A stretch of DNA of 64,000 nt from Diabrotica undecimpunctata (Eukaryota > Arthropoda > Insecta > Coleoptera > Chrysomelidae), in NCBI RefSeq assembly GCF_040954645.1, contig NC_092805.1, positions 73,269,186 to 73,333,185 of the forward strand, in the 5' to 3' direction. How positions within the stretch are numbered: position 1 is the first letter of the stretch; each line of letters begins with the position of its first letter. Below the pieces are notes generated by a model. It was not told the origin of the DNA. It saw only the letters and a list, made by a program, of their open reading frames with translations, and searched no databases. Made by a program: the position numbers and the translations under genes. This document shows positions 13,951 to 53,299 of this stretch, piece after piece.

Positions 13951-13952
13951 AT

Positions 13953-19335: not shown

Positions 19336-20648
<1,313 letters not shown>

Positions 20649-20818
20649 AACCCAACAGTGACGGACGCTACCATTTCGATGTTACTTGGCTCCGTCGAAT
20701 CACCTAGATTTTCCCCGTGTTAAGTAACGGAAGCTGCAGTCGGCCGGAGGTCCCGGTGATGAGGATGCTTCGGTAGTATAAAGAGGGCCCCTTTCACTGT
20801 TGGATTAGTGAGAGTGTG

Positions 20819-25804: not shown

Positions 25805-28800
25805 CAATCTAAGAGGCCTTGTAGCCTAGAGGCAGGGTATCCATAAAATCATCATTATGTACAATCTTCCGTTTTTTGAATTCCATCTTGAATGCCTTCG
25901 ATATCCTTTTCCTCGTCACTATGTCTTTAGTGTGGACATCGTGACCTATTTGATCATACTGTAAAGTGATTTTCTTGGAGGGAACGTGTATGATATCATT
26001 CATCATTGAGCCATTGAGTACTAGGCTGTTTTCATAGTTTAAAGTGAAGCCTTTGATTTTAGTAACCTCTTTACCCATGGCTGTTTTGTAGTAATAACTT
26101 TTTGGTCCAGTAGCCTGCCATTCTACAATATAATCATCTGACCCAAGCTCATCGTTCCAATCGCCCAACATTTCACCTGTTTCGACAGTGTTTAGTCCAT
26201 CATCAATATAAACAATGGAGTCTGTGTCGACATAAGCTACAGCTTCTCCTAGGGTATCAATCATATTGTACAGTCTTAGACGAGCGTTACTTGTTGTAAA
26301 TAAAGCCACAAAAATATTTGTAGATGTGGGGTCTTCTACAAATACGTCCTTGTAATCATATGAGCTTAGACTATGTGATCGTTAACAAATATCACATTAG
26401 TTATGTTGATTTTATCATCGAGCAATATTCCGTACCATCTTTTGAGGTCCACAATATACTCTGTCTGTTTCATATTCATTCTTTGCCCAAACTTACCCCA
26501 TAGGCTATTCAGACATATTTTAACGACTGCTCGTTTACGAAGATTTGGAACTATTTTCTCTTAAGTCTATACCCAACTGTTCTTTAACTGTTCGTACATA
26601 TTCTTCATTTGAGAGATATGTATGTGGACTAGTTTCTAATTTTATTTTCATAAAATCTTCGACATAGCCCTTAAATAAATCCGTCGAAGTTTATTCAAAA
26701 TTCCATACCTCGAACACTACCAACATTTTACACCCCTTTTCTATGGCTTTATTGATCTCTAGAGTTGTCCACGTACCTTTTAATGCACGTTCTGAGTCAT
26801 CATGATCACAATTTTTGCAGTCTTCCAACACGCATTGATTACACAGTCAGTTTTGAGAGGTAGGACAGGGTGATATAAGTCGGTAGGTGGCAGTATTTGG
26901 CAATGTACTGGGCGAAACCACCAGGGGTCGTATAATTCGTAGCGGTCATAATACTGTACGGTTGGATACAGTGATACAATATCTATATATCTAAGCTTTT
27001 TGCCACATTTAGCTTTATGGCGTTTGTTTGTCCTCCAAAGAATGCTTCACGAGGCTTTAAAGGTTCAACAATTTGAGAGTTCAGTGCCTTTTTACATTCT
27101 TTTGATTTTAACCATTCACATTCCCACATTTCCACTATGTTGTAACCGGCGTCTTTTATCTGTGAGGCTCACCGTATAGTTCTTTCGTATAAGTCACTCA
27201 TTGTATCGTTATTAATGTGGTTAACTGTATTGGGAGCAAAACACTCTGGGTGGCCATGCCAGAAACAGCCGTGGTACTGGTACACAGTATTTGTGGAGGA
27301 GTCATAGCCATCTACTTAAGCACCGCAAATTGTCACTTCTCCACCATTAAGAGCATGCTGTACGTCTGGAAACTGGCTCAGCCATTTTATCGATGCCAGG
27401 CTATACGTCTCCTTTATGTCCTGTTTTACAACCCCAATAGTGTTTGGTTGCAGATATTTGGACCTATATATAGCCATACAAACACCGGCAATTGTCAGAT
27501 ATTGAAATGTGTCTATGTTAGCGATCCCCAAAAATTCCTTGCGAAACTCCAAACATCCACGTCTTAAAATATTAACATCCGAATCACAGTAAGCATGTAG
27601 TGCCCTCTAAAAATCCATCGTGTCATTTAAGAAACTCTTTCCTTTGTTTAGGTTCCATTGTGTACTTAACATCTGGTAAACATCCTTTATAAAACTAATT
27701 TTCGGGAGTATTGAAAAAGTGAGGAAAATATCCCTTTTTAGACTCTGTCAGGCCAAACGTTTTCGGAAAATTTGCCAGAGGACCAATCACGAAATTAGAA
27801 CTGTCTATTATTTTCAATTTAAGAGCCTCGACTTCCAAAAGCATCAGTTTTGACCCGTTGTAGATGGTGTACGGCTTTATCGTATTTTCTACACAGTATT
27901 TTAAAATAAAATACGAATCGTAACCCTTAGTTTAGCTTCGTAACCGAAAAATAAATACTTTTCTGTATATGTGCAACGATTTATGGGGCTGTTAGAGAGT
28001 CCGTTGCATTGGCATGGATCTTGACATGTAACAGTTGTTTTATAATGCTTCCGACAACCCATATTTTCTTCATTACTACGACTATTACATAAGCACGGTA
28101 CTTCGCAAAATCCTCCTTTGGCGGGTTTTTTCATCATGTAACATTGATGCGTAGCTATTTCTACAAATGTGTTACAATTCCTGCACATCGAGTAGCCACA
28201 TTCATGCTGTTTTTCCCTCTTACACAGCTTATTACAAGTGGTACATTTAAATACTTCTTTGCAATTTTCTGTGTGTTTGTCCAAACAATCTTTATTAAAA
28301 CAAAATCTATTCCAAAGTTCAAAGTAGATTTTATTTTGCGTAGCCAAGTCATGTTCAGGTTGTTTACAAATCGTACACTTTGATAAGCGTTGTCGCACTT
28401 GCTGCAGTAGTTGGTACCGTGTAGACCCTTTAAATTATTTATAACATCGAAGTGGTTTTTATATTTGTAGAGGTATAGTTTATCAGGTTTATCATCACTT
28501 TCGTCTATTATTGTATTAAAATTTTCTGCACATATAATTTTTATTTGAACATCCAAAAGCTTCGCAGCCTGTTTAAAATCGGAGAGCGTGAAACCCTCGT
28601 CATAGTAACCACCCAAGAGGTTGCAAAGTTTTTCAGCCGAAACAGTCTGCAGTGTTCGTCCATCGCGTATGCTCCGAGTATCCCTTTTGATCAATTTGTA
28701 CCCCAAAATCTCTGTTGTGACGTATGTAAGAGCAGTTACGATTGCTCGGGCCCCACAAAGATTATCAGTATTAACAATCCGTGTAATGCTCTTTTTGGTT

Positions 28801-29183
28801 CGACGATCCTCTGACAAATCTATCATTCTACGACGACCGCTACTCCTAAGCATCTTAAAGATTTGGATATCGAATTTTGTGTCAGCCAAAAGAACAGTAT
28901 TGTTAGATGTTAGTATATTTTCAAGTTGCTGCAATAAATTGTCCATATTGTCTTCTGTGGTTACTTTTGTCGATATCGAATGATTGAAATTGTCATTGTG
29001 GGCAATTATGTGAATTTTATCACCTTTTTTGTAGCCACCCTGTTTCTTTGCATCATTCAGTGCATTTTCCAATAGATTTTTCAAATTCAATTCGCCATGA
29101 CTAAGAGAACCCCCTGTATGCTGCTCGCAAGAGAGCTGGAAACTATGTAGGTACGCATAAAATGTAGTTATGAACCTACGCAT
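25805..29183 (-). pseudogene. Protein-primed family B DNA polymerase (Maverick/Polinton type)
   Basis: Starts ATG at 29183 (MRRFITTFYAYLHSFQLSCE). An N-terminal region of about 300 residues includes NTDNLCGARAIVTALTYV. Then comes a Cys/His-rich stretch (CTICKQPEHDL, CFNKDCLDKHTENC, CTTCNKLCKREKQHECGY). Exonuclease I motif region near 27930 (YLFFGYEAKL; FDYEA in the right copy). The middle part is recognisable in mixed frames: ALHAYCDSDVNILRRGC (about 27580), NTVYQYHGCFWHGHPEC (27250), CNQCVLEDCKNCDHDDS (26830). The C-terminal palm has GEAVAYVDTDSIVY (about 26230, catalytic DTDS) and KIKGFTLNY, ending PLGYKAS at 25809. Many frame breaks. Capsid, integrase, protease and ATPase genes of a full Polinton are not seen here. 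Confidence 0.87.
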
Positions 29184-30529
29184 TAAAAACTTTAATGATC
29201 AATTGTGGACCATTTCAAAAAATTATTCAAAAAATAAACGTGATAACCAAAAATTTTTAAAATTATTTAAAGTATAAAAGTTAAAAAAATTTCCAAAATT
29301 TTTTTCAAAAAAACGTGTACAAATTCAAAATTGAAAATGCAATATCTATTTTTCAAAAATTCAAAAATTTTGCAAACTTACCGCAAGAGCAGATCAGAGA
29401 GCACGTCTTAACGCCAAAGCTGACGGATAAGAAATGAGAGTAAATCATCTTTTGCGTGTCGTAAGGCCGTAGCGTCCTCCTGGTTTTCAGGGGTTTCTGG
29501 ACGATCTACGACCGCCGCTCTTGAACAGGATCTCAAGTTTCGAGAGTCCATCATCGTTTCGTGGAGTTAAATTGGGATTCCGTCCTCTACGGGTGAGAAG
29601 CTCCGCCGAGCCTCTGTGGTAGGTGAGGGGACACCGGCAAACAAAATTCTTCAAAAACAGTTCGAGCTTTCTTACAGACAATATTCTTACAATGACTTAA
29701 TATTTGTGTTAAAATTTTGATGCGTAGTGTATGTCTCAAATTCCACAGAGATGTCGGTCTTCTCACTTCGTGTAGCCGCGTTCCCTCTCCTCGAGAGAGG
29801 TACAAGAATGCCGGCAATGTCGACTCTTCCTGCTGCCTGTCGCTTCGTGTTGCTACCTTTCGCTAACAGTAATTCCTATAGTTACTATTTGCATAAGGTT
29901 TCTGGAGACGAAGTGTTATTGCAGCTCAACCTGATCGGAAAAGCAATTACAAGTCCCCGTCGGGGCTTTCATTCGCTCTTTACCGTGACAGGCCCAAATA
30001 ACGCTGTGGTCAGTTCGACACAATTTGAAATAGTTCTAAGATCAATGTCTTTTCTATCTCAGAAAGTCGTGTTCTACTGCCAGGAAGCGTTTTTGTAGTC
30101 GACACGCCGGTTCTCGTACTCTTGATAATTAAACTTCTAAATTGCATAATTATTCTTGGATTCGACGTCTTCGACGATAGCAGGATATTGGTTAAATAAT
30201 AAAACTTAAAGTAGCATGGTAGCACACCGAGCCAACAAGGTCTAACTAGGCTTGTAATGTATGACGACTGGATCCCGATCGAAAGATGTGCTGGTCTTTT
30301 ATACACATTGTGTTTGAGAATTTGCAGCAATCTTCCGCCGAGAGGCCAATGACAGCGTAGTTAATAACATGCGCTGTGATTGGCCGGCCAAAGTAACAAT
30401 CTTTGTCGTGATTGGTTACCTTGGCGACATGCGGACCTTTTATACGTTTCCACCCTAGGTCACGTGACCCACGCTATAACTTCAAATAATAATAATAATA
30501 GCACTGCTTGAGAAAATATGGAAAACTAT
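29184..30529 (-). other. 5' region of the left polymerase element
   Basis: 29200-29460 matches the reverse complement of 61430-61700, including a splice-donor-like CTCTTGCG|GTAAGT (29381 on the minus strand). 30390-30529 matches the reverse complement of 60876-60985 (GGTCACGTGACCCACGCTAT). The piece between (about 29470-30385) is GC-richer and differs from the right copy. Whether it is leader, internal promoter or a different terminal module is unknown. No gene is supported. Confidence 0.55.
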
Positions 30530-30838
30530 TGTTACGATAATTATGGCGTTTAAAACTAAATATATTATGACTAATTCTGTTTTTGTTCTAGTTTGTTTAC
30601 CAGAAACCTCTAGACCCGAATTAAGATGAGTCATCCACGACTTGAGGTTTTTAAACAGTTGAAAAACTAGTTTTAGCCGAAGACCGCCTTCGCCAAAATA
30701 CCAGTCTATTCGATGGAGTTCCCGTTATTCTTGTCAACACCACCAACAACCGGTCTTCCCCAATGTTCGAGTAAATTCATGTCTGCTATAGGGAATTCCG
30801 AAACTAACGGAGTTTTATATAAAAAGAGAAATTTTGTT
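30530..30838 (+). repeat. Gypsy-1 5' LTR, first part
   Basis: Matches 39280-39588 with few changes. Ends at TTTTGTT, repeated at 34891-34897 as the LINE target duplication. Confidence 0.9.
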
Positions 30839-31189
30839 TTTTTTTTATTTATTTATTAACGGGATACCACCCAATTTAATATATACACAAAGTATTAAAA
30901 GTATTAACTAGTGATACAATAATTATAAAGATATAGTAAATATGTATAAAAAGAATTGGCGATGCAGCTATATAGAAAAAAAACAAATATTAAAATTATA
31001 TAAAGCACATAGCAAATATAAATCACATAAAATTACAAATTTTTTTTAAACACATTCTACAGACATTTTCCGAAGCGCACAGCAACAAATCAAAGTCTAT
31101 TCTATTTCCATTTAGAATGATTCTACTCAGTGGAGAATGCCTACCAAAGTTAGAGCGATGAAATTTAATTGCAAAATTATGAGATGTAA

Positions 31190-33820
31190 CTAGTAACTAG
31201 ATCTAGTAACTCTAGAGGGAACATTAAAGTCAATTAGAGACAGTAGATCATTGCAATTAATTTTTGAATTCAGTAGTTTATGAAGAAACAAAACATCAGC
31301 ATACATCCGTTTGGAAGATAGCCTAGGAAGGTTTAATGTATTTCTAATTTCTGAGTAGGAATGGTCGCTTAAAGGTTTGTGTAATTTAAAACTTAAGTAC
31401 CTAATTAATTTATTTTGGACTTTTTCAAGCTTGGCTATATGGACTTCATAAGTGGGTGACCAAACGACTGAGCAATACTCAAGAACAGATCTAACTAGGG
31501 AAATGTAAATCAGTCTGATGGAATTAATGTTATGCAAACATCTAGAGGTTCTAATAATGAAGCCTAACATTTTAAATGCCTGGTTATTCACATAATCAAA
31601 ATGAGCGCAAAAATTTAGTTTGGAATCTAATTGAACACCTAGATCTCTTACAGTTGAGACAGCCTTTAGTGGTTCTTCAGCTAATTTGTAATTATAAGAG
31701 AGGTTGTTAATTCTTCTACAGAAACTAATAAAGTGACATTTTCCAACATTAATGCTGATTTGGTTCCAATTGCACCATGCCATAATTTTGTTAATATCAA
31801 TTTGGAGTTTTTCACAATCTGAGACGTCTTCGATAATTCTCTAGATTTTCAAATCATCAGCAAATAGCAAAAATTTAGAGTTAATTTGAGATTTAATGTC
31901 ATTAACAAATATATTAAAAAGGAAAGGCCCTAAGTGGCTTCCTTGTGGAACACCAGATGTTACGGAGATCTCACTAGATTGAAAGTGTTTAATTTTAACA
32001 AGTTGTATTCTGCTAGTTAGGTAACTACATAACCAGTTATACAGATTGCCTGTAAATCCAATAGTTTTAAGCTTGGTACACAACAATTTATGATTCACAG
32101 TGTCAAATGCTTTGGAGAAATCTGTATAAATAGCATCCACCTGTAGTCTCCTTTCCAAAGCATCAGGTAGAAGTTGATCTACCTGAAAGAAAACCATGTT
32201 GCTCTTCAATTAGTACATTGCATAAAGGTGTTTTAATAGAGTAACATATTATACTCTCTAGTATTTTAGGAATAGAAGAAAGAATGCTTATTGGTCTGTA
32301 GTTAGCTATGTTACTCCTGTCACCTGATTTATGAATAGGAACAATAGAACTAGATTTCCACAAACTTGGACAAATACCTGAATCAAGTGAATGAGAAAAC
32401 AGAAAATATAAGGGATGGGTTAAAGTACATCTACATTTTTTTAATAGTATGGGTGGAATTCCATCTGGCCCAGAGCCCTTATAAATGTCTAAATTGGGTA
32501 ATTTTTCAAATATGATTTCAATAGATACATTACAAGAATTTAGACTCACTGTTTTCTCATACTCTAAGATGGGCTGTATTAAATCATCATTTGCTCTGTA
32601 AATATTTTGAAAGCATTGCGCAAAGCTATTAACGATATCCGCACCATTATTAAGGATTGTGTTTCCAAAAAAACATTGTGTTTGGTAGACCATTATTTTT
32701 GCGTTTGCTGTTAACAAAATTCCAAAAATGCTTTACGTTTGAACTAATTCTAGATTCAGTTTGACTTGTCTTTGCATTTGGTTCTCAAGGAAGAGAAAAG
32801 TAGATAATCGTCCCAAGAATTTGTTTGTTTATATATGTTATGAGCAATTTTTTTCCTAAATATTAATCATTTTAGGTCATTAGTCATCCAACGAGGAAAT
32901 TTGGGGTTTTTTAATCTTGTACGTGGTATTGAACAATTGACACCAAACTGCAATATGGAGTTGAACAGTTCCGTGGCTTCGTTAATATCTCTGCAAATAC
33001 TTAAAACGTTCTCCCAGGAGATACTAGCAAGATACATATTAAGAGCAACATAGTCTCCTCTACTAAAATTGAAGGCAAAACTATTATATTGAAGCTCGGG
33101 CATATTATCTTTTATAGCTAAAGAAATTGATAACGCAGGATGATAACGATCACAAGGCAATAAATAATCGTTAGCAATTTCAACTGTTACATTTTCATTA
33201 TCATTTGCAAAAACTAGGTCAAGTAAAACTCCGTTGCAATTTGTGATTTGATTGAGCTGAAATAGGTTATGAAATGCAAAAGTATCAACTAAAGTATCAG
33301 TAGCAGTGTTACTATTATTACTAAGGACACCTCTTTCATCATGGTACCATTCGCTGTTTGGCAGATTGTAGTCTCCTGTTAGAATGAACTTGTGTTCAGG
33401 AAAATTGTTACAGACAGATTCTATACTAATACAATGATTCTCATGGCATATTAAGGCTGAATTAGGCGGAAGATAAACTGTACCAAGTATATAGCATTGA
33501 TTCAGAGTGCAAACTCGACAAACAGTTCCTCCAAGTGAACATGTGGTAATAGAATAGACCTCGATGAGTAACATTCTTTAACTGCAATAAGGACACCCCC
33601 TCCAATTACTTTAACACTAGTTAATGGAGAGCGGTCCTTTCGATATATATTAAAATCTAAAAGTCCCAATTCGTCACTACTGATACCATCACACAACCAC
33701 GACTCAGTAAATATAAGCACATCATAGTCAGTTGTAGCAGCACTTTCTTCAAGAGCACCAAGCTTAGTTCTTATTCCTCTAACATTCTGATAATATACTG
33801 TTAGTTCATTAGACACAATG
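31190..33820 (-). pseudogene. LINE ORF2: endonuclease and reverse transcriptase
   Basis: Endonuclease: YYQNVRGIRTKLGALEE (about 33790), TESWL (catalytic Glu), GGGVLIAVKE, and after a shift near 33540 ILTGDYNLPNSEW, then DLVFAND and YHPALSI. A gap in the frame near 32800 precedes the RT: GSGPDGIPPILLKKC (32500), YRPISILSSIPKILE, FLSGRSTST, TDFSKAFDTVNHKLL (32110), SGVPQGSHLGPFLFNIFVND (31950) and FLLFADDLKI (31865, catalytic). The thumb reads VRDLGVQLDSKLNFCAHF, LVRSVLEYCSVVWSP and ends VPSRVTRSSY near 31190. Breaks are at about 33540, 32750, 32190 and 31830. Most catalytic residues are intact. Confidence 0.9.
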
Positions 33821-34563
33821 TGGGAGGTACCCCTGGAATTGTTTTTTTTCTGGATTACTATTTTTGGTACGCCACGAATGTACCTAATGGTAAGATTTTC
33901 TTCACCTTTTGAAACCCTATCTGCCAAATTAGTACGAAGTTCACTAAGGTATTTTCTCTGTAGATAGATGGAATCGGAGCTAATCTTAATATTGGATGCA
34001 GCAAGTTTATTTTTATTTTTTAAAATTGATAGTGCTATTCTTATTTTCAAGAACTACTTTAAGTGGACGTGAAATATTATTCTTGATATTACCAAGTCTA
34101 ATTACTTTTTTAACTTGAATATTGGGATTGATCACGCTTATAGATTGTTTAACTTTCTTCATATCTTCTTCAATTCTTGCTGGTGCTGTGCTAGAGTTGG
34201 TTTCATGGAGGTTATAAATAATAATATTATTTTCACGGAATTTACGTTCCTCCACTTCCTGGATGATGGTGTCAAGATCTGTGGCTTTGTTATCTCTAGG
34301 CAGTTCTAGTGAGCTAATTTTATCAATAAGTTGTTCCACCTTTTGTTCAAGAGAACTGATTTGCTTCTTCATCATAGGAATCATTTTAATACCCTCCTCA
34401 CAGGATTCGCAAAAAGTTTAAGGACTCTTCTACCCTTCAACTCCAACACCCTGATTTCTGATGCTGTCAGATTGGCACATTGATGATGAATATTCTGATT
34501 GCAACCATCACAAACCCAATATTCACCACCCTTGACATCCAACAAACATTTTGTGCATGACAT
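33820..34563 (-). pseudogene. LINE ORF1: zinc finger, coiled coil and RNA-binding protein
   Basis: Starts MSCTKC (34563). PHD-like finger CTKC..., then YWVCDGCNQNIHHQCANL; the last CxxC (CESC) reads after a one-base shift near 34420. Then coiled coil MIPMMKKQISSLEQKVEQL and an RRM-like RENNIIIYNLHE (34240) to VIRLGNI. A second shift near 34010 leads to a conserved tail QRKYLSELRTNLADRVSKGE and LTIRYIRGVPKIV. Such ORF1 proteins coat LINE RNA. The frame then runs into ORF2. Confidence 0.78.
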
Positions 34564-34890
34564 ATTTAAAAATTTTAAAATTTTTTAGATCAAGTACTGG
34601 CCTATCTTCTAAATATATTATTTGTAGAAGTACTGATAACTTTTTATGAAGAGTACTTAAGTTTTTGTTGAACTCAATTAGGAGAATATGTGCTTCTAAT
34701 TGCAAATAAATGCAATTTCTGGAACATTCACTAATAAATATGAAAAATAACTTACAGATTAATAGGGTCTGAACTTTTACGAGTTTTTTGATACCAAACA
34801 ACACATTAATCACTAATAAATATCACTTAAATTGTACACCATTAACAGAGCAGAAAAATATGTGCTTACGCCAGTAAATATTGTGGAGGC

Positions 34891-34945
34891 TTTTGTTGGG
34901 AAGAGAACAGTTAATATCTGAAGATCGCGCGCCGCGTTTAAATTG
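34891..34945 (+). repeat. Gypsy-1 5' LTR, second part, truncated
   Basis: TTGGGAAGAGAACAGTTAAT, then ATCTGAAGATC and GCGCCGCGTTTAAATTG, matches 39588-39637 of the right LTR, then jumps directly into RT coding sequence. The remaining ~140 bp of LTR plus leader, gag and protease are absent. Confidence 0.85.
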
Positions 34946-37260
34946 CCCATGTGTCTCTCCGGTGGTCCTGGTTAAGAAGAAAGACGGAACGACGAGGTTC
35001 TGTGTGGATTACCGTTTGCTGAACAACGTTACCAAGAAAGATAGTTATCCTCTGCCTCGGATCGACGATACATTGGACACATTGGCTGGAAGTAAATTGT
35101 TTTCTACTTTGGATTTGAAGTCTGAATACTGGCAGGTAGAAATGGATCCAGTAGATAAAGAAAAGACAGCCTTCACCACAGGATCTGAATTGTTGCAGTT
35201 CAACGTTATGCCATTTGGACTCTGTAATGCTCCTGCGACATTTGAGAGGCTTATGGAAAATGTGTTGAGAGGGTTATCTTGGAAAACATGCCTGGTTTAT
35301 CTAGATGACATAATCGTCTTGGGAGAGACATTCGAAGAACATTTGAAGAATTTAGAAAACGTTTTTAATCGACTTAAAGCCGCCCAATTGATGTTAAACC
35401 CCAAGAAGTGCCAGCTATTTCAAGGTAAAGTCAATTATCTGGGTCATATAGTCAGTAAAGAAGGAGTGGCCGTGGATAAGGGAAAAATTGATTCCATTAA
35501 GGAATGGCCAGTACCAACGGACAAATATCAAGTTAGAAGTTTTCTTGGACTATGTACTTACTACCGAAGGTTTATTAAGAAGTTTGCAGATATCGCTAAG
35601 CCATTAACGCGACTCACAGAGGAAGCAAGAGATTACCGCTGGGATACAGACTGCCAAAATGCCTTTGAGACCTTGAAAAAGCATTTAATAACAGCACCAA
35701 TTTTAGGGTATCCACTGCCAGAAGGAGAGTTCATCTTAGATACAGATGCAAGTAATGTGGGAATTGGAGGAGTGCTGTCTCAGATCCAAGGAGGACAGGA
35801 ACGAGTCCTCGGATATTTTAGTAAAGATCTTTCACAACCTAAGCGGAATTATTGCTTCACGAGAAGAGAACTTCTAGCAGTAGTTAAATCAGTAGAGCAC
35901 TTCTATCAATACCTCTATGGCAGAAAGTTTCTAATCCGAACCGACCATACCGCCCTTAAGTGGTTGATACAGTTTAAGAATCCAGAGGGTCAGATAGCCA
36001 GATGGATCGAACGACTCCAAGAATACGATTTCAAGATTGAGCACCGGGCCGTAGTTAGCCACAGAAACGCTGATTCTCTTTCCAGAAGGCCATGCCCAGC
36101 AGAGTGTTCCCACTGCAACAAAACGGAATCCAAGGAAGCAGCAGTGCTAAGAACAACGATGGTCAACGACGACTGGACGCCTACTAAGATCAGAAAAGAA
36201 CAAGAAAGAGATCCAGTTATACAGAAAATTCGAAAATGGAAAGAGGAAAACCGTCGACCACCTTGGCAAGAAATATCAAACCTATGCTCAGTAGTTAAGA
36301 CGTATTGGGCCCAGTGGGACTCATTTATCATGGAAGATGGCTTGCTCAAACGAGTCCTGGAAAATAATGACGGTTCAAAGAAGAGAAGACAGTTGGTGAT
36401 CCCAAAGAGCAGAATAGCCGAAGTACTTCGTCAATTACACGACAGTCCATCAGGAGGGCATTTTGGTGTAAAGAAGACCCTTCAGCGAATTCGGGGACGG
36501 TTTTATTGGATGAACAGTTCCGACGATGTAAAAGACTGGTGTAAGAAATGTACTATTTGTGCTACGAGTAACGGGCCTTATCGAAAAAGGAAAGCTCCTA
36601 TGAGACAATATAATGTTGGAAGCCCGTTTGAAAGAATAGCTTTGGACATTGCAGGGCCATTTCTAGAAAGTGAAAATGGAGGCAAGTACATGTTAGTAGT
36701 AATGGATTACTTCACTAAGTGGGTCGAGATTTGCGCAGTTCCAGACCAGAAGGCCGCCACCGTTGCAGATAAGTTGATCCAAGAATATATCAGCCGATTT
36801 GGAGTGCCTTTGGAGATCCATAGTGACCAAGGCAGGAACCTCGAAAGCGATCTATTTCAAGGAATATGTAATAGACTAGGCATGAAGAAAACAAGAACTA
36901 CGGCTTATCATGCGCAATCGGATGATATGGTAGAACGGATGAATAGGACAAAGGGCAAGTATTTGACAAAGATGGTGTCCGATCATCAGCGAGACTGGGA
37001 CCAATATCTATCGTTCTTCACAATGGCCTATAGATCTGCTGTTAACGAATCAACAGGCCAGACACCAGCCAGGGTCCTATTCGGGCGCGAAATGCGACTA
37101 CCTTGTGATCTAGAGTTTGGGTGTCGACCTGGAGAAGATGTAGCAGGTGAAGATTATGTGATCGAATTACGAAGAAGAATGGACGATGTACATGAGTTGG
37201 TCCGTTCCCATCTTCAGATCGCTAGCGACCGAATGAAGAAACGGTACGATATACAAGCCA
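34946..37260 (+). CDS. Gypsy-1 pol: reverse transcriptase, RNase H, integrase (5'-deleted)
   Basis: Open for about 770 codons. [34 protein letters not shown] (usual Gly is Glu), [19 protein letters not shown] and [12 protein letters not shown] (YLDD). Then [12 protein letters not shown] and [19 protein letters not shown]. RNase [49 protein letters not shown]. Integrase: zinc-binding [10 protein letters not shown]...CKKCTIC, core [20 protein letters not shown] and the Glu in ERMNR. It has no own start: the upstream in-frame codons derive from the LTR. It is cut after KKRYDIQA by the insert at 37272. The missing gag and protease make it non-autonomous. Confidence 0.93.
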
Positions 37261-37271
37261 TACAAGCAATG

Positions 37272-38410
37272 TGTAACGATGAGACTACCAAAGAGAATTG
37301 AAATATTATTGTAAAAAATAATACCTCAATCAACCATGGGAGCTTATCGTCTATATCGTCTTGTCTTAAACTAGGGATTGAACCTGAGTTCTCAGTTGAT
37401 AGCAAATAAGACAAATTTTAACCAAACATATTTATTTAAATGAATAAAAAAACAATAATTAACCCTGCCAAAGCTTAACAGTTAATAAGTGTTACTTATT
37501 GCTTCGATGGGCTGCTTGTGTGTTCTAGCTGTTGGGTCCTCCAATTAGAAGTTGTGGCTTCTGGAGAGAGAGCTGCAGTCACACGTGGCTGTATGTCCTA
37601 AGTTTTGGTGTCCAACAAACCAATAAATTCAACAACTCCAATTAAGTTTTGATGTGTCCAACAAACCCAATAAAATATCCAGTAAACCAATAAAGTTTTG
37701 ATATCTCCAATAAACTAAAAGGATAAGAAACAACTTGCGTTAGAAACACATCAAAAAGAAAGGTTTAACTTCCTTGCCATCTTACACAATTACACTTAAA
37801 CAAATAGCGTATGGCAAGGATAAAATGAAATATGAATGTTACTACTTAGTTAAATTCTGTTAAAGAGTCCTAATGCATATATCAGAAAAAAAATGTGCTT
37901 TCGAAAGAAAGTAAGGTTACATTGGAAATGCGGTCAGAATTATAGAATAAATATCACAATGAAAGTAATTACCCCAAGAGAATTTGTAGACCATAAAAAT
38001 GAGTCTTATAATTATTTTTGCCTTCTTTTATAAATTTCAAAAAGAGGCAAAAAATAATCCCACTACAGAAAAGTTGTTTTGACAGAAAGTGGGAGACTGA
38101 ATGAAGTTAGCACAGATGTCATAGGATGTTGCTATAGATATCATGAAACTAGCTTGTCAGTCAACACGGAACAGAATAGTCTGCCGAACAAAAGTGAGAG
38201 GGCGAATATTTATTCTATGGGACAGAAAGAGAGAAAAAAAAATAAAGACAGAGGAAGAAGAGAAAAAACATGGGGCGCCAACTATTTTTATAAATAAAAA
38301 ATAGTAAAAATTAAACTGAAGATAAAGAAATTAATAAATTAATAAACAAATTACAATGAAATAATTATTTAAATATAAATTAATAGAGATGTGACGTTTA
38401 TAACGTTACA
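37272..38410. mobile_element. LTR-like insert (possible solo LTR) inside Gypsy-1 integrase
   Basis: Ends TGTAACG (37272) and CGTTACA (38404-38410), a perfect 7-bp inverted pair of TG...CA type. Integrase coding stops just before it and resumes right after (KGCFKKNDKVWLYNP at 38411). It is 1139 bp with no domain. The middle has CCAATAAA-rich short repeats (37610-37720). I could not find a clean target duplication, so LTR status is inferred. Confidence 0.6.
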
Positions 38411-39268
38411 AAGGGTTGCTTTAAGAAGAACGACAAAGTCTGGCTCTATAATCCCAAGAAACGAAAAGGTTGTTCTCCCAAATTGTAGCAGTTTTGAAAA
38501 GGCCCATACTTAATTATGGAGAAGATCAACGATGTCATCTACCGAATAAGCAAGATTTCGAGGGGAAAGCCGATGATAGTACACCATAGCCGGCTGGCGT
38601 CTTTCGAAGGTGACCACGACGTAGATGAAGAAATGGAAGTAAACCAAGTCCAAGATGTGTCTGACCTCACGTTTGAGGAATTCATGGGTGCCTATGGAGG
38701 TACCGGTAAAGCAAGACATGGTGTTACCACTGAAGAAAAGCAAGATCTACTCGCGCTCCCCGATGACTACTCGCTGGCCCTTGCCATCCCGGCCAGTATC
38801 AAAGACGCACCAGGGTTGGCATCCGTCATTCGAAGGAAGTTCGGTCGAGTTGCAGAACTTCAATGCCAAGTGCCAGCTCCTGGGAAAGCCTTGAAACTCC
38901 AAGAAGCATCACGTTACCTTTTCTACCTGGTAACAAAAGACACTGCCCGTGACCAACCTACCTACCGAGATGTATGGGAAGCCTTACTTCAATTGAGAGA
39001 GCACGTACTAGAGTCCGACGTGCAAAAGTTAGCTATGCCAAAGTTAGAGTGCCGCCAATTAGATTGGAGGGTTATCCGAAGTATGGTGGAGGAGATCTTT
39101 AGAGACACCGAAGTCCAGGTGTTAGTCTGTTGCAATCCGCATAGTTACTGGTGCGGAGAGAAAACCGTCCCGTGTCATTTTTATAAAACTGAAAGTTGTA
39201 AAAGAGGGATACCAGCATACCGTTCCAGTTCCAGTCCCGACAAAGTTCCAGGAGGAACTATCTTTTAA
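38411..39268 (+). pseudogene. Gypsy-1 integrase C-terminus fused to a macro domain (TARG1/OARD1-like)
   Basis: From 38411: integrase tail KGCFKKNDKVWLYNPKKRKG, two in-frame stops (about 38486, 38495), then from ATG 38516 INDVIYRISKISRGKP and HHSRLASF, the usual Gypsy integrase end. After an acidic linker (residues 32-65) a macro domain follows (about 69-206): VTTEEKQDLLALPDDYSLAL, GLASVIRRKFGRVAEL, RYLFYLVTK (Lys141 at the position of the catalytic Lys of TARG1), PTYRDVWEALLQLREHVLE, KLAMPKLECRQLDWRVIRSM, TEVQVLV. Family members bind ADP-ribose and remove it from acidic residues. The GCGLD loop with the catalytic Asp is shortened to ECRQLD here. A Cys-rich tail ends at the polypurine tract. 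Confidence 0.82.
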
Positions 39269-39279
39269 GAGGGGGGCAA
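39267..39279 (+). promoter_or_regulatory. Gypsy-1 polypurine tract
   Basis: AAGAGGGGGGCAA immediately before the right LTR. The preceding ORF ends inside it. Confidence 0.8.
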
Positions 39280-39776
39280 TGTTACGATAACTATGGCGTT
39301 TAAAACTAAATATATTATGACTAATTCTGTTTTTGTTCTAGTTTGTTTACCAGAAACCTCTAGACCCGAATTATGATGAGTCATCCACGACTCGAGGTTT
39401 CTAAGCAGTTGAAAAACTAGTTTTAGCCGAAGACCGCCTTCGCCAAAATACCAGTCTATTCGATGGAGTTCCCGTTATTCTTGTCAACACCACCAACAAC
39501 CGGTCTTCCCCAATGTTCGAGTAAATTCATGTCTGCTATAGGGAATTCCGAAACTAACAGAGTTTTATATAAAAAGAGAAATTTTTTTTGGGAAGAGAAC
39601 AGTTAATATCTGAAGATCGGGCGCCGCGTTTAAATTGTAACGTCCGATAGATAAATTATGTAATTAGTCAAATAAATTGTTGTACAGTGGTTTAATAAAT
39701 TGATATAAATTATCGTGTTTTTTAATAAATTAAAATAAGAACAATATAATAAATTAGAATTAATAAAGTCGTAACA
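39280..39776 (+). repeat. Gypsy-1 3' LTR, complete
   Basis: 497 bp, TGTTACGA to TCGTAACA, followed by the CTAT duplication. Reference for the broken left LTR. Confidence 0.9.
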
Positions 39777-40107
39777 CTATATTTAAAATAACTATTTCAG
39801 TTATCAGAATAATTATAAAAATAAGATATAAATACTATTTTTAAAGTTCACGACGCTAAATCTTGCTTTATCAATGTAAGTAAGTAACCGTTGCTATTTT
39901 TAGAACGGTTGATTATTTATAGGTCTCGCGAAGCAATATTTTTTTAGTAATAGACAAAGTCGTCATTGATACTTATTTTTTAAAGCGCGAAAGACCAGTT
40001 TTTTAGAATTTATTAAACTGTTTTAGGTATTTGTTTTTTTATTTAGTACAGTTTAACAGTGTGAGGTGATTTGTTAAATTATTTAGAATTACTAGTTAAA
40101 CTATTTT
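39777..40107 (-). repeat. Outer end of the left polymerase element
   Basis: Reverse complement of 60497-60870 with scattered changes (shared TTAGCGTCGTGAAC, GGTTGATTATTTATAGGTCT). Similarity stops at CTATTTTAATAAG on this side and CTTATTAAAATAG on the right copy, the likely element terminus. Confidence 0.75.
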
Positions 40108-40525: not shown

Positions 40526-41290
40526 TTTGGTAGTCATCTTGTTTGTTTTGTCTATCTTAATATAATCGTTATCCCCTCCCCTTTCATTTTCTATGTCGCA
40601 TGTTAGGATTCAATCAGTTGTTTATTTTGAACTCAACCAGAGGCCTTCCTTGAGTCAATAATCAAAATTTGTTTTATAGTATATCTATTTTCATCCATAG
40701 CGTCCTATGATATCTCATATGTAACTATACGTCCATTAATAACGAAGATGCTGTGTAGTGCCGTTTTGGTAGTCATCTTGTTTGTTTTGTCTTTTTTAAT
40801 ATAATCGTTATCCCCTCCCCTTTCATTTTCTATGTCGCATGTTAGGATTCAATTAGTTGTTTATTTTGAACTCAACCAGAGGCCTTCATTGAGTCAATAA
40901 TCAAAATTTGTTTTATAGTATATCTATTTTCATCCATAGCGTCTTATGATATCTCGTATGTAACTATACGTCCATTAATAACGAAGATGCTGTGTAGTGC
41001 CGTTGTGGTAGTCGTCTTGTTTGTTTTTTCCATCTTTATCCCATCCCCTTTCATTTTCTATGTCGCATGTTAGGATTCGATCAGTTGTTTATTTTGAACT
41101 CAGAGGCCTTCCTTAAGTCAATAAATCAAAATTCGTCTATAGTAAATTTATTTTCATTCGTAGTGCCTTATGATATCTCGTACGTAACTATACGTTCTAT
41201 ATAATCAAGATCCTGTGTAGTGCCCTTTTGGTAGTCGCCATGTTTTTTCCTATCTTAATATATTCGTTATATCCTCCCCGTTTAATAAAT
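40526..41290. repeat. Tandem satellite, ~239-bp unit, about 3.2 copies
   Basis: TAGTCATCTTG-type starts at 40531, 40770, 41009 and 41232. The first two units differ at only a few bases; the last is shorter and more diverged. The same family occurs in reverse orientation at 59235-59930. Confidence 0.9.
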
Positions 41291-42897: not shown

Positions 42898-44978
42898 CAG
42901 ACTGTTTCAAGTTAAGAATTCACAACTGAACAGATAGGCCAGTGCATTTCTTACGGGCGTATGTTGCCAATAGTTCACGGGACTATGCAGGGCCGGCCGA
43001 AATAACCCATTCTTTATTTATATTCAAATTTTTATTTATATTTTCCAATGTTAATCAAATTTATTTTAAAAAGATAGGTACGTATCTATTTAATAAGCTT
43101 AACGACTACAATTACTTATAAATATGGTTACATTTTCAGGGAAGTGATTTTAAAGATTATTAGAAAAATGTCTTTATTAGTGGTTAAAATATTAGGTTTT
43201 ACGCAATTGGTTAATTATTATGGCACAGGTAATTCTGACAGCTTAGGTGTCAACTCTCAAAATTATTTATAAAATATTACTTTCACAATAGTTAATAAAT
43301 AGAAAGCAATAATAATTAAGATATTGTGCTTAAACTTCCATTATCGGGCAAGCCGGGCTAACAGGCCCTAACAGTAAACAATATTGATTACTTTATAATT
43401 GACTATTAATAGTTTTCTAATTCTCTTTATGTACTTAGTCATTCCAAACAATAGTGTCATTTGGAAAGCACATTTGGAAAGCAGACAGATTTATGAGTTA
43501 TAGATAAATGAGCGGTATGTTTTTCAAAATAGTGTAATTAGGTGAAGTGGAGATTATATGTTTGTCTGTATACATAAGCCCAAACTGCCCGATTACGTTT
43601 TTAAATTCTTCTGCCCGGACAAGGGTTAAGGCATAACCATCGCGCACTCAAATCTCAAGTGTAAAAAATTATATTGTTAAAATGGATCCAGTTTTGCCGT
43701 TTAAAAGTGGTCAAATTTTACATCTGAGTGCTAAAAAAGTGATCTTAAACGTAGTGAGATACCACATTAATTTGCTTCGAGATGAAAGTCAACGTATTGT
43801 ATTCGACAAAGTATCCGCGATGACAGGAGTGTCAGTTCGTACGATTCAAAAAATCGTACAGGAAGACAAAGAAGGTGAGCTTTCTGAGGTAAAAACAAAC
43901 AGAAAAAGAACCCGTTGCCGAAACAACTCCAGAGACTATACTTACGATGAAGGTGTTCGTATCGGCGTTCGTCGAACAGTGCATAGTTTTTTTTTTGAAA
44001 ACATTCCTCCTACTTTGAATCGTCTTCTGCCAAAAGTGAACCAAGACGAAAACTTGCCAAATTTTACCCGCAGTACAATGTACAGGTTGTTAAAAGACAT
44101 GAACTTTGTTTATGCAAAACGTGATAAAAGTGCCGTGCTAATAGAACGTCCTGATATAATTGCATGGAGGCATGGATATTTAAGGGCCATTAAACAATAT
44201 CGGGCTGAGGGCTATGACATTGTGTATTTGGATGAGTCATGGGTCAATGTGGGGCACTCGGTTTCCAGAGAATGGAAAGACAAAACCGTCACCTCGGCAA
44301 GAGATGCGTTCATAAAAGGGCTAAGTACTGGACTAAAGCATCCCACTCAGCGTGGACCACGTTTCATCCTTGTCCATGCCGGAAGTGAAAATGGTTTTGT
44401 AAACGGTGCTGAAATGTTTTTCCTTGCAAAAAAAAACAGCGCTGATTATCACGACGAAATGGACGGTCCGTGTTTTGAGAACTGGTTTGAAAACAAACTG
44501 TTGCCCAACTTAGTTCGAAAAACGGTTATTGTTATGGACAATGCTCCATATCATAGTGTAAAAACCAAATAATTTGTTACATTTCTATGGTTCTGTTGTA
44601 TTTTTTTTAAAATATACAGAAGTTTTTATTGTTTTTTTATGTTTTTTACTGACACTAATAATATCTACCACAATACTCACTCAATTTGTTCATTAAACAA
44701 TTAAGAATATTTTTAAGAGTCTGATGATGACCTAAGCCGAAATTTAATAAATAACTGTTGTGAGAAAAAGACATGTCTTTAATTTTTATTTTTCAAAAAA
44801 ACAAAAAAAATTTAAAGTTACCTAAGTGAAAAAACGTCTAATGTGCAATATAACATGCAGTTCGGCCCTGCTTTTTCGCTGCAACTCCACTACTCTCGCC
44901 TATCTCAGTCTATCGGTAGTTCTGGCATCACCGCTTCCCATAAGGCTCCTTTATGAATTCTTAACTTGACACAGACAG
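42898..44978 (+). mobile_element. IS630/Tc1-type DNA transposon with TA duplication
   Basis: Inverted ends CAGACTGTTTCAAGTTAAG (42898) and, on the other strand, CTGTCTGTGTCAAGTTAAG (ending 44978), both continuing AATTCA; 22 of 25 match. Flanked by TA on both sides (42896-42897, 44979-44980), and the right LTR shows the empty site CCCTAGTTG. Length 2081 bp. Holds one transposase frame. Confidence 0.92.
43682..44572 (+). CDS. IS630/Tc1-family transposase, C-terminally truncated
   Basis: 296 codons from ATG 43682. The N-terminal helix-turn-helix region includes TGVSVRTIQKIVQE (about residue 55). A linker KRTRCRNN precedes the catalytic core: DIVYLDESWVNVGHSVSREW (first Asp, with the typical W), GPRFILVHAGSENGFV, DYHDEMDGPCFENWFENKLL, TVIVMDNAPYHSVKTK (second Asp, MDNA.YHS). 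Then a stop. The final third with the last acidic residue (after GH..LRLPPYHC..NPIE in relatives) is absent and not found downstream in any frame. Likely inactive as assembled, despite well-conserved inverted repeats. Confidence 0.88.
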   Translation: MDPVLPFKSGQILHLSAKKVILNVVRYHINLLRDESQRIVFDKVSAMTGVSVRTIQKIVQEDKEGELSEVKTNRKRTRCRNNSRDYTYDEGVRIGVRRTVHSFFFENIPPTLNRLLPKVNQDENLPNFTRSTMYRLLKDMNFVYAKRDKSAVLIERPDIIAWRHGYLRAIKQYRAEGYDIVYLDESWVNVGHSVSREWKDKTVTSARDAFIKGLSTGLKHPTQRGPRFILVHAGSENGFVNGAEMFFLAKKNSADYHDEMDGPCFENWFENKLLPNLVRKTVIVMDNAPYHSVKTK

Positions 44979-48560: not shown

Positions 48561-51500
48561 TTAATCTTCATCTGAGGAAGAGGATGCTATGTCATCCACT
48601 GTATTATCTGGAAGTAAATCCTTTATATGAAATTGACCAATTCGTCTATTTGTCGAATTGTCTTTTAATTCATATACTAAAGGAGAAATTACTCGAACGA
48701 CAGTACAGGGAATATATTTCTGGCAGAACTTAGCAGAAATGGCATCACTCTTACTTGATTTTACAAAATTTCGCTTCAAAACTCGATCGCCAATAAAGAA
48801 TCGCATGTCTCGTTTCCTCAAATTATACTGACTCTGATTTCTAAGGTAAGAAGCTTTCAACTTCTTCCTAATGTCAGCGAAGATTGGAGGTAAGTTTTGG
48901 AGATCTTCCATACGGTGAAGTTTCTCAGAAATTTGAGGAAGAGTTGTTAAATTTTCAGAAATTAAACCGAAATAATCACCTGACAATGGAACATGCCTAC
49001 CAAAATTAACATAAGCTGGAGAGCACTGAGTGATTTCATGAACCGAAGTTCGAATGGCTTGAGCAACTGAATGAATGTACTGATCCCAAGCTCTATGATC
49101 AGTGTAAGTGTAAGATCGAAGAGCAGTAACAATGCTACGATTTACACGTTCAGTGTGGTTAGCTTGCGGATGATAAGCTGCATTGTAGAATATCTTTTGG
49201 ACCTTATATTTACTTAAAAGATCTTTAAAGGCTCTAGAAATAAATTGTGGACCATTATCACATGATACTATTTGGGGAATACCAAATAGTAAGAACACTT
49301 GCTCCTCTAAGAACTTCAAAATAGCTGGAGTTGTAGCCTTACGAAGAGGACAAACTAAAGGAAATTTGGTGAAGTAATCTACAACTACCAAGCAATATGT
49401 ATTACCTAAATAACTACGTGGATACGGTCCAATAAGGTCTAAAGAGATCATTTGCCAAGGAAAATTAATGTTCCTAAACGAACCCATTAATCCAGCTTGA
49501 GGTAGGTTACTCGGTTTGCATGTTGCACAAACTCTACATCTAGAGATGTATTTCTTAACTGAGTTGCACAGACCAGGCCAGTAATATAACTCAGCTATTT
49601 TACTAAATGTTTTATAAAAACCAAAGTGACCTGATGTCACATCATCATGAAAGGTTCTCAAGACTTCATCCCTATTTGCTGTTGGGACTACTATTTTCCA
49701 ATCAGACATATTCGATAAAGATTCAACTGGACTGATTACATGTTTATAAAGGATATTATTCTCTACCTTGAAATCAGGATATCTAGTAGGTTCTTGGGTG
49801 ACATTATGAATCATAGTTCGATACCAATTATCTGGAGATAAAGTGGACAGATCTAAAAGATTGATATCGAATGTACGTGACAACGCATCTGCAACCACAA
49901 CACCATTGGCTTTGCGATGAACAATATTATAATCAAAGACAGAAAGCCTACAAATCCAACGGGATAAACGTTGTGACGGATTTTTCATGGAATGTAACCA
50001 TAATAAAGAACTATGATCTGTGATGATAGTAAACTTACGACCCTCAAGATAGTACCGAAAGGCATCAAGACCATGGATAGTTGCAAGAAGTTCTCTCTCT
50101 GTGGTGGAATAATTTTTCTGTGCTTTATTGAGCTTTTTGCTGGTATAAGCTATTGGATGTTCCGAACCATCCTTAATTTGAAATAGTACACAACCTGAAG
50201 CAGTGTTGGAACAATCTGTCATGAGATAGAAATGCTCTTTAAAATTCGGAGATGTCATGACAGGTGCACTAGTAAGAGCTTCTTTTATACGCCGGAAAGC
50301 ATCATCGGCTTCTGAAGTCCATGTAATAGTTTGGCCTTTTTTCCTATTTTTAAGGAGATCTGTAAGTGGGGACAACAAAGTAGAATAAGACGGCACAAAC
50401 CGACGATAATATCCACACATGCCTAATATCCTACGGACTTGGGTAGTAGTCTTAGGTATAGGAAAATCCTTGATAGCAGCAACTTTATCAGGATCAGTCC
50501 TTAAACCTTTACTATCGACTACATATCCTAAAAATTTAAGACTAGGACGACAAAACTGACATTTATCTAAATTAATCGTTAAATTAGCCTCTTTGAGACG
50601 TAAAAACAACTTATCCAAAATTTCCATATGAAGAGAAAAATCAGGAGTGACAACCAAAATGTCATCCAAATAATAAAAAACATAGGACTCTAACTGAGGA
50701 CCAATGACTAAGTCCATCAGACAACACATTGTCTGAGGAGCTGAAACAAGACCAAAAGGCATCGTGACAAACTGAAATAATCCTTTCCCACTAACTGCAA
50801 AAGCTGTATACTTTTTACTTTCCTCACTTAAAGGAATTTGTAAAAAAGCTTTAGATAGGTCGATAGAAGAAATATACCTAGCATTCTGGAGTTTACTTAG
50901 AATGACGTCTATTCGGGGAATAGGATAAGCATCCCGATTTGTAGTAATATTATTCAACTTTCGACCATCGAAGCAAACCCTAAAAGATCCATCCTTTTTC
51001 TTGGTTAACCACAAAGGACTACAGTAAGAAGACGTGGAAGGTTCAATGATCTTCAACTCTAACATGGAATCAATTTCCTTTTCCAAGTCAACTTGCCAAG
51101 CCTGAGGAATAGGATACTGGTATTGTCGAAAAGGTGTGGTATCTCCCACCTCGATAGTGTGAGATATTAAGGATGTACGACCTAACTTGTCTTTCGACGA
51201 AAGAGTTATAAATTTAGAGATCATATTCTCTAATTGTCTTTGTTCGAGACTAGATAAACTCGAAAAGTCCTGAATAGTACTAAGTACAGACAGATTAAAT
51301 TGAGAAACAGAAAAAGAAAAATTAGAACAATTTAGTGTGCTATTAAAAGCATTTAAGAAATCCATACCTAAAATGATAGAATTCTGAACTGAGGGAATAA
51401 TGTAGAATGTAATTTGCTTACATAAATCTGCTACTGTGATTTCAGTTTCAAATTTGCCTGTAATAGACTGAACTGTACCATCTGCAGTAGATACTTGCAG

Positions 51501-51894
51501 AGAAGAAATGAACAAAGCTAATGAATGTGAACCTATCACAGAAATGTTTGAGCCACTATCTAAAAGAGCTAAATAAGATTGTCCTAAAATCTTAATAGGA
51601 AGATAAGGTCTATTATCATTATGTTTCTTCACTAATAAGGAATTCAAATCAAAACAACCATAATCTGATTGGTCAAAAATTTTAAATGGTACCAAACTAA
51701 ATTTATTATCTCTACCAACACAATCAGAGGATGCAATAGGAAAACAAGAAGAATCAGAAATAAAAGAATCCTCCTGACCTGTGGTAGACTCTGGTATGCA
51801 TATTGGAACTACTACACTACTACTATCACGTTTAACACTAAAATTTGGGGAAGATAATCTATGCGAATCAAATGTTTTAGATTGGGAAGTTACT
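48561..51894 (-). CDS. Gypsy-2 pol: protease, RT, RNase H, integrase
   Basis: Open over 1044 codons from the ATG at 51695 and further open upstream to about 51894, where it overlaps the gag end in the -1 frame. Protease: LALLDSGSNISVIG (active-site DSG). RT: SPLWLTKKKDGSFRVCFDGR, SSIDLSKAFLQIPL, FVTMPFGLVSAPQTM, FYYLDDILVV. RNase H: MTDCSNTASGCVLFQ, TERELLATI, ITDHSSLLWL, ADALSRTF. Integrase: zinc-binding TSGHFGFYKT...CRVCATC, SLDLIGPYP, VSCDNGPQFISR, HPQANHTERVNRSI (D, D, E all present). The C-terminal GDRVLKRNF and YELKDNSTNRRIG, then an acidic end. No break seen. The best preserved retroelement protein here. Confidence 0.95.
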
Positions 51895-53299
51895 CTTTTG
51901 AGTGATTCTGTGTGGTGTGTGTTGGTTTTTTCGTGTAAACCCCTTTTCCTTTTCGACTGGAAGATGGGTTTGAATGGTTAGACGTGGTTGGAACAGTTGC
52001 TGTGTTTGGTGGATCGGTTTGGCTCCCTGATGGGGGTGTGGACGGAGAAACGCTCAGGGGACGGACCTCCGACCGTTCGTTTCCCGAACACTTAAAACAA
52101 TTACGTTTGAGAGTATTTTCTTTACCGCAACCATGGCAGAAAATACGGGTACGAGGGATACCGCAATCATAAAAAGTATGACCAGACTCACGACAATTCC
52201 AACAAACTACAGAACTCAATGCGGAAATATTACGTTCATGGCCTTTGGATTGCCAAGAACGGTGTTTGGAAGTATCTAGGTGACGTGAAGAATTAAAAGA
52301 AGAGGGTCGAGAAGTAGAAGGAAGGTGAGAAGACCAAGATAAAGTTTCTTCTAAACGTTTACACTTCTCCGTAATATCAGCTATACTAGTGATCTCTACA
52401 AGAGCCAACTGCTGATGATAAAATGGCAATAGACATTTCAGGATGATCTTAATCTTTGCAGTCAGAGGTGTTTCAAGGCGACTACACATACCTAAAATAT
52501 TATTAATGAACATCGTAACAGACTCGTGTGGCTTCTGTTTACGATTTTTAATTTGATCTAAAAGGTCGTCTTGAAAAGAATAAGGTAGAAAATCAGACTT
52601 AAGTTTCTGAGCTAGATCAGACCAATTTGAAAAATTATTGCGGTTATTCATAAACCACGTAAAAGCTGCACCTGAAAACAATTCTGCAGACGCTGCGAAG
52701 AGATCATCTTCACTCACTCCTCTCGATACACGAAGACATTCCACTCGATCCAAAAAGGAAATAACCTGGTCATAATGACCTTCACCAGAAAATGTAATGC
52801 CCCATTTATGAACCTGAACAGGTTTGGGTTGTAGAAATGCATTTGCCGCTTGGACAGAAGAGATTGGAGTTGATGTTGCTATTGGACTCACTCGAGAATC
52901 AAGTTCGCCCTCTAGACTTAGGATTCGGACAGAGACAGAGCGTTGGAAGATTTGTTGTGCATCATCTGAACAAGATAATAAATGCACACGACCTGAGATG
53001 TGAGCTAGGCGTGATATTAGCCTGGAATATAGGCTATCTTGGACAGTCCCTCTAAAATCGGCTATCCTTTTCGCCAAATCATCCACAGTCTCTTCAATCT
53101 CCTGTTGTTGGACCTCAAAAGGAATATTTGAGGCGGAAATCTGTCGGAAACTCCTGTTTCCTTCTTCCTGCCTTAAAGCTCCACGCAATATTTTGCGTTT
53201 CAGATCAACATTGGAAGACTCATCAATATTGATGTCCCTAATCCTTAACTCGTAATCCAGTTCCTTCACTAACAAATGTTCTACCTTAAATGCAGACAT
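51890..53299 (-). CDS. Gypsy-2 gag
   Basis: The likely start is ATG 53299 (MSAFKVEHLLVKELDY). The frame is open upstream to 53368 but with a low-complexity Phe-rich stretch inside the leader. Central capsid-like part: WGITFSGEGHYDQVISFLDR, AFTWFMNNRNNFSNWSDLAQ, KNRKQKPHESVTMFINNILG. Nucleocapsid with CWNCRESGHTFYDC, CHGCGKENTLKRNC and the basic Ser-rich end KKPTHTTQNHSKE. The stop at 51890 overlaps the pol frame; CTCAAAAGAG nearby could be a slip site. Forms the particle that packages element RNA. Confidence 0.92.
   Translation of the reverse strand: MSAFKVEHLLVKELDYELRIRDINIDESSNVDLKRKILRGALRQEEGNRSFRQISASNIPFEVQQQEIEETVDDLAKRIADFRGTVQDSLYSRLISRLAHISGRVHLLSCSDDAQQIFQRSVSVRILSLEGELDSRVSPIATSTPISSVQAANAFLQPKPVQVHKWGITFSGEGHYDQVISFLDRVECLRVSRGVSEDDLFAASAELFSGAAFTWFMNNRNNFSNWSDLAQKLKSDFLPYSFQDDLLDQIKNRKQKPHESVTMFINNILGMCSRLETPLTAKIKIILKCLLPFYHQQLALVEITSIADITEKCKRLEETLSWSSHLPSTSRPSSFNSSRHLDTSKHRSWQSKGHERNISALSSVVCWNCRESGHTFYDCGIPRTRIFCHGCGKENTLKRNCFKCSGNERSEVRPLSVSPSTPPSGSQTDPPNTATVPTTSNHSNPSSSRKGKGVYTKKPTHTTQNHSKE

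Follow-up and report, generated by a model that had tools for sequence, protein, structure and literature searches.

A macro domain of the TARG1/ALC1 class lies behind the integrase, in the pol frame, of a Ty3/Gypsy long terminal repeat (LTR) retrotransposon family found in a 64,000 nt stretch of the Diabrotica undecimpunctata genome (NC_092805.1, positions 73,269,186 to 73,333,185; hereafter the window). It is likely, in our judgement, that the family represents an insect Ty3/Gypsy lineage in which the macro domain was captured once, forms the C-terminus of Pol, is maintained by selection in thousands of copies and acts on ADP-ribose near the integrase. A preliminary description of the window had located a TARG1-class macro domain within the retrotransposon, downstream of the integrase and ahead of the 3′ LTR, and this position was seen both in the window copy and in all eight further copies that we fetched.

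Copies of the element in the genome

Searching the 1.74 Gb genome with a 36-base macro signature of the window family (family A) returned 2,589 matches with up to three mismatches, and the corresponding signature of a second family (family B) returned 1,097 at the same threshold; reversed-pattern controls gave 0 in both cases. Eight copies, picked by macro similarity and mostly with long frames, were fetched as 9-kb stretches. All eight displayed LTR pairs (96.3–100 % identity, ends TGTTACG...ACA) and, on visual inspection of the ends, 4-bp target duplications. The macro domain sat before the 3′ LTR in every copy, with the same polypurine tract, and TGGTGTCA was present directly 3′ of each 5′ LTR as a candidate primer-binding site to which no tRNA was matched. 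Three copies comprised a single gag-pol frame (1810, 1814 and 1847 aa), four had shorter frames followed by a pol frame of 1414–1422 aa, and the eighth, L038, was broken up; the macro domain belonged to the pol frame in all but L038. In L031 and L037 the frame passed through the polypurine tract and ended at a stop 11 nt inside the LTR.

Pfam identified a Retrotrans_gag capsid and a zf-CCHC zinc knuckle in the L037 gag, and the order aspartyl protease, RVT_1, RNase H, H2C2, rve and Integrase_p58_C in the related protein P0013. From its TG...CA LTRs, target-site duplication, polypurine tract, gag zinc knuckle and protease–reverse transcriptase (RT)–RNase H–integrase order, the element is a Ty3/Gypsy LTR retrotransposon, a class assigned through Pfam domains and placed only as Gypsy/retroviral type. 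Gypsy-like LTR elements are named among the repeats behind Diabrotica genome-size differences in part of an earlier account (PMC8982398). The L037 gag (L037:5394-6671, minus strand) also carried an N-terminal SAP domain (PF02037), of a DNA-binding type and not expected there.

Identity and relatives of the macro domain

The Pfam Macro profile, a check suggested in the preliminary description, was silent on the window copy. In fold comparisons TARG1/C6orf130 occupied ranks 1–8 in Foldseek and ranks 1–6 in VIA-align. The domain is a TARG1/ALC1-class macro fold. Pfam Macro likewise gave no match in P0002, P0003, P0022, L061 or P0013, stayed under the cut-off in P0007, P0014, P0016, P0019 and P0024, and exceeded it in P0035; it is a poor test for the macro domain of these elements. 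Chance similarity, or DNA hitch-hiking passively at the 3′ end of pol, would sit well with the missing profile match in the window copy and is ruled out by homology and fold together with the many copies.

Protein searches for relatives gave 9, 4 and 715 matches, with 120 of the 715 listed. The matches listed included Gypsy Pol proteins with a macro domain (P0011–P0014), and shorter proteins labelled by their sources as Diabrotica virgifera, D. balteata, Brassicogethes, Aromia, Callosobruchus, two fireflies (Pyrocoelia and Aquatica) and a leafhopper (Macrosteles). Relatives were found in other insects, namely beetles and a leafhopper. P0012, which is near the element protein P0011, is filed under the powdery mildew fungus Erysiphe pulchra; our guess is that contamination with insect DNA is likely.

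Several relatives (P0006, P0018, P0019, P0020 and P0023) bear the public name OARD1-like, a warning that insect gene models so named can be retrotransposon pieces. P0018, a family-B-like piece, was the only OARD1-like gene model of D. undecimpunctata among the matches listed. It is 100 % identical to C8:128837550-128838005, a lone family-B-like macro domain in a 177-aa frame with at most 86 % identity to other copies, which may be either an ancient remnant or a copy that has been domesticated. When a host OARD1 gene was sought with P0009 and P0018, transposon copies filled the scored lists. The broken state of the window copy, and public annotation that labels some pieces as host OARD1-like, would both suit a one-off fusion between a Gypsy remnant and a host OARD1 fragment. 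Such an origin is effectively eliminated by the many LTR-flanked copies, with thousands of signature matches, the same domain at the same place in recent LTR-flanked insertions, and relatives in other insects all standing against it.

The macro alignment contained 65 domains, from which seven short or redundant rows were dropped to leave 58 in the tree. A branch with support of 98/95 placed 24 element rows on one side and 34 others opposite, the latter including fly and mosquito proteins and human OARD1; given this single element clade, one capture is likely. An integrase tail was visible in 12 of the 24 element rows (11 by motif, plus L074). Outside the clade fell P0035, in which an integrase tail seemingly of another Gypsy type is joined to a macro domain with an intact catalytic dyad (PF24626, PF22938, PF01661); forcing it inside was not rejected (p-AU 0.18). 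From these sequences, a second, independent macro capture in P0035 is possible.

The CCCH zinc finger downstream of the macro domain

The first reading of the 3′ end was right about the macro domain but had overlooked a CCCH zinc finger behind it. The finger was present in 48 of the 55 family-A loci and in 8 of the 10 from family B, and the seven family-A loci lacking it rank highest among the matches to the window protein, itself with a frameshifted tail. It scored over the Pfam cut-off in P0002, P0003, P0007 and L061 and under it in P0022 and P0024, whilst P0013 matched other zinc-finger models only, under the cut-off. L034 (= copy L003) combines a frameshifted CCCH finger with a 1415-aa pol frame and LTRs that are 100 % identical; the finger-less subgroup has therefore moved recently, and the finger is therefore not strictly needed in cis. 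P0014 and two Macrosteles rows had no CCCH finger and were sister to the remaining element rows in the drawn tree, so the simplest order is macro domain first and finger second.

Loss of the catalytic dyad in Diabrotica

TARG1/OARD1 (C6orf130) is an ALC1-like hydrolase with a catalytic dyad; in the window family the domain is instead C-terminal in a retrotransposon Pol, usually followed by the CCCH finger, and the dyad is broken. Catalysis by TARG1 involves Lys84 and residue 125, given as Glu125 in the relevant part of PMC7050489 and as Asp125 in that of PMC9411070. The Lys84/Asp125 dyad was intact in all 37 aligned non-element rows and in 15 of the 24 element rows, the 15 being grouped by that trait. 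The other nine, with a broken dyad, formed one branch (89/75, not strong). Within it, Lys was kept in the window copy, P0002, P0003 and P0004, in which Asp was gone and loop 2 was two residues shorter; P0007 had Arg and Asp at the dyad, and P0005 had neither residue. Family B pairs Arg with Asp; in P0018 and P0020 the partner of Arg is Glu. Across loci, all 55 of family A read Lys84 and LECRQLDW, with the catalytic Asp gone, and Arg84 was found in nine of the ten of family B, the tenth not being read. Asp20, which we take to be the adenine contact, and Gly43 were kept in all nine dyad-broken rows.

Reversal of ADP-ribosylation, which the preliminary description gave as a property of macro domains of this class, is not supported by way of the TARG1 mechanism for the window element, whose loop 2 is two residues shorter and which lacks the catalytic Asp. 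Judged from these residues, de-ADP-ribosylation by the Diabrotica element families is doubtful, and an enzymatic reading may hold for the members of the lineage that keep the dyad. DarG and SCO6735 are described in parts of PMC7050489 and PMC9411070 as using ADP-ribosylated DNA as a substrate in the absence of a complete dyad, and the loss of activity in Diabrotica is therefore likely, not sure. We nevertheless regard it as improbable that the Diabrotica domains are still ADP-ribosyl hydrolases through a DarG-like or SCO6735-like mechanism independent of Asp125, given that loop 2 of family A is short and has lost glycines, family B carries Arg84 and P0005 has neither residue. The DarG antitoxin macrodomain is a bacterial toxin–antitoxin partner with 18–23 % identity to the element macro domain.

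Selection on the macro domain and its retention

The macro domain is under purifying selection in Diabrotica. A codon model fitted to five family-A and three family-B sequences returned an omega of 0.194 for the macro domain (137 codons) and 0.208 for the integrase (185 codons). Pairwise A–B comparisons of the macro domain gave omega values of 0.090 and 0.102, with twice the log-likelihood difference (2dlnL) at 47.2 and 46.5 relative to omega 1; the pairwise A–B integrase fit ended at a boundary (omega 0.000, t unlimited) and was not used. For within-family macro pairs omega was 0.07–0.21 (2dlnL 2.7, 8.9 and 4.4), one of the three being not significant. Several LTR-flanked copies and purifying selection on the macro part, which the preliminary description had named as support for a functional capture, were thus both found.

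Retention was examined in copies picked without reference to the macro domain, using the RT piece of the window copy as query and scoring 150 copies out of 16,743 candidates; these are the most window-like in RT and hence biased to intact copies. Their frames measured 1407–1431 aa in 61 copies, at least 1784 aa in 50, between these classes in nine and less in 30, the two main classes being the lengths of known macro-bearing copies. On C1 below 87.4 Mb, the exact macro 36-mer was located approximately 2.1 kb downstream in 21 of 22 RT matches, with exact matching only.

Several points weigh against a once-captured, selected ADP-ribose module at the end of Pol. Twelve of the 24 element rows have no visible integrase tail and were counted as element pieces by their place in the tree, and the capture is left unbracketed because the nearest macro-less Gypsy relative did not turn up. 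The comparison between the two families suffers from saturation at synonymous sites (pS 0.84 for the macro domain, 0.88 for the integrase), with NG86 dN/dS undefined. Within family A (39 distinct macro domains, 55 loci), dN/dS was 0.16 for linker plus macro, 0.21 for integrase and 0.51 for the finger, and within family B (10 loci) 0.28, 0.59 and 0.67, respectively; these copies were selected through their macro similarity, a choice that depresses macro dN, and more weight was given to the A–B comparison and the RT-picked copies. Selection was measured in Diabrotica only. Lastly, family A is also without Gly121 and Gly123 of loop 2, and may therefore not even bind ADP-ribose.

A proposed role at integration

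Under the reading that we favour, a single capture from a TARG1-like gene would have supplied the macro domain, with the zinc finger added later. The domain would be made as an extension of the integrase, or be cut from it, and in either case would stay with or near it. It may act on ADP-ribose where integration has nicked the chromatin, or at the termini of the element DNA. PARP enzymes can put ADP-ribose on DNA ends. TARG1, among others, strips ADP-ribose from nucleic-acid ends, as stated in a section of PMC7050489. In members with the Lys/Asp dyad the macro domain would erase ADP-ribose, whereas in the Diabrotica families, with the dyad lost and the fold, Asp20 and Gly43 kept, it would mainly read or tether. 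The CCCH finger most probably binds nucleic acid, perhaps element RNA. More specifically, we suggest tentatively, and with well under even confidence, that the integrase-fused ADP-ribose module of an old insect Gypsy lineage finds or clears PARP-marked integration DNA, that it has passed from eraser to reader, and that P0035 is a separate capture at the same place.

A competing account, which has a real but minor chance of being correct, is that the macro fold has been repurposed as a structural or a protein- or RNA-binding part of the integrase; the CCCH finger would then bind RNA, and ADP-ribose would no longer be relevant in Diabrotica. In its favour are purifying selection despite a broken dyad and altered loops, and the finger in most loci of both families (48/55 and 8/10). 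It fits less well with the persistence of Asp20 and Gly43 in nine of nine dyad-broken rows, or with the recent insertion L034 (identical LTRs) in the broken-finger subgroup.

The reading or tethering role in our preferred scheme would be analogous to that of the chromodomain on chromovirus integrases for histone marks. Chromoviruses, which are Gypsy elements with a chromodomain behind the integrase, carry a chromatin-reader-type domain at the same position; here a macro domain is found instead, and its targeting function is putative. No Pfam chromodomain match at E 0.01 was obtained in P0002, P0003, P0007, P0013, P0014 or L061. A retroelement-encoded macro domain is likewise found in fish retroviral sequences, of which Basta et al. 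2009 is reportedly the source. As cited in a passage of PMC4977317, these fish endogenous retroviral sequences have additional macro-domain open reading frames (ORFs); they are vertebrate and epsilon-like elements with the domain in additional ORFs, in contrast to the insect Ty3/Gypsy element, where it is fused in frame to the integrase. Among the matches listed in the open-access literature (titles and abstract openings), there was no report of a macro domain in a Gypsy element. Retroelements with a captured host domain are already known, and the in-frame integrase-macro arrangement in an insect Ty3/Gypsy element is what appears to be new here. It physically ties ADP-ribosylation, which serves in DNA-break and antiviral signalling, to the integrase of a retrotransposon family that is abundant and recently active. 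The presence of the domain in relatives from other insects, and its retention under selection, suggest that some jumping genes exploit the DNA-damage signal of the cell. Since intact and broken catalytic sites occur within one macro lineage, eraser and reader are directly comparable.

The window copy and its surroundings

The copy in the window (Table 1) is a dead element, because a long interspersed nuclear element (LINE) sits in its 5′ LTR, gag and protease are gone, the integrase is split and the zinc finger is frameshifted. The remainder of the 5′ LTR is missing as well, such that the LTR runs into pol at ~34945. DNA identity across the first pol segment was 95.5–95.9 % to the four copies compared (L031, L034, L037 and L038), and the insertion that splits the integrase is AT-rich and without clear terminal inverted repeats.

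Table 1. Features of the macro-bearing element in the window (window coordinates)
Feature	Position	Strand	Basis
Target-site duplication CTAT	left 30526..30529, right 39777-39780	.	read from sequence
5′ LTR, first part (TGTTACG...), LINE-interrupted	30530..30837	+	303/310 bases identical to 3′ LTR (5′ LTR from 30530, 3′ LTR from 39280)
Nested non-LTR retrotransposon (LINE), endonuclease and reverse-transcriptase remnants	30838..34890, ends approximate	-	minus-strand ORFs; Pfam RVT_1, Exo_endo_phos_2
5′ LTR continuation, abuts pol directly	34891..34945	+	96% identity over 55 bases to 39583-39637 of 3′ LTR
pol: reverse transcriptase, RNase H, integrase zinc-binding and core	34945..37259	+	Pfam RVT_1, RT_RNaseH, Integrase_H2C2, rve
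1.15-kb insertion splitting integrase coding region	37260..38409	.	absent from the four compared copies L031, L034, L037, L038
Integrase C-terminal tail and acidic linker	38498..38710	+	PF22938 E 2.5e-12
TARG1/OARD1-class (ALC1-like) macro domain; Lys84 retained, Asp125 absent alongside a 2-residue deletion	38711..39136	+	
CCCH zinc finger remnant, frameshifted in window copy	39137..39214, ends approximate	+	alignment with relatives
Polypurine tract	39267..39279	+	identical TCTTTTAAGAGGGGGGCAA before 3′ LTR in 8/8 fetched copies
3′ LTR (TGTTACG...TAACA)	39280..39776	+	end set by CTAT duplication

Other repeats were present in the window. A 239-bp unit in 3.2 repeats (40526-41279) lies directly downstream of the element, and a second Gypsy-like gag/pol pair with a 1,138-aa pol frame (48561-53377, minus strand) showed, by eye, no macro domain behind its integrase. 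Also by eye, ORFs at 10983-15255 (minus strand) resemble a BEL/Pao-type element, those at 43637-44572 and 56018-58106 (both plus strand) resemble mariner- and pogo-type transposases, and two related ORFs at 28161-29198 (minus strand) and 61829-62617 (plus strand) may be fragments of a single type of large DNA transposon. CA/GT dinucleotides are repeated over ~1.3 kb (19340-20650), a tract that is open in several frames.
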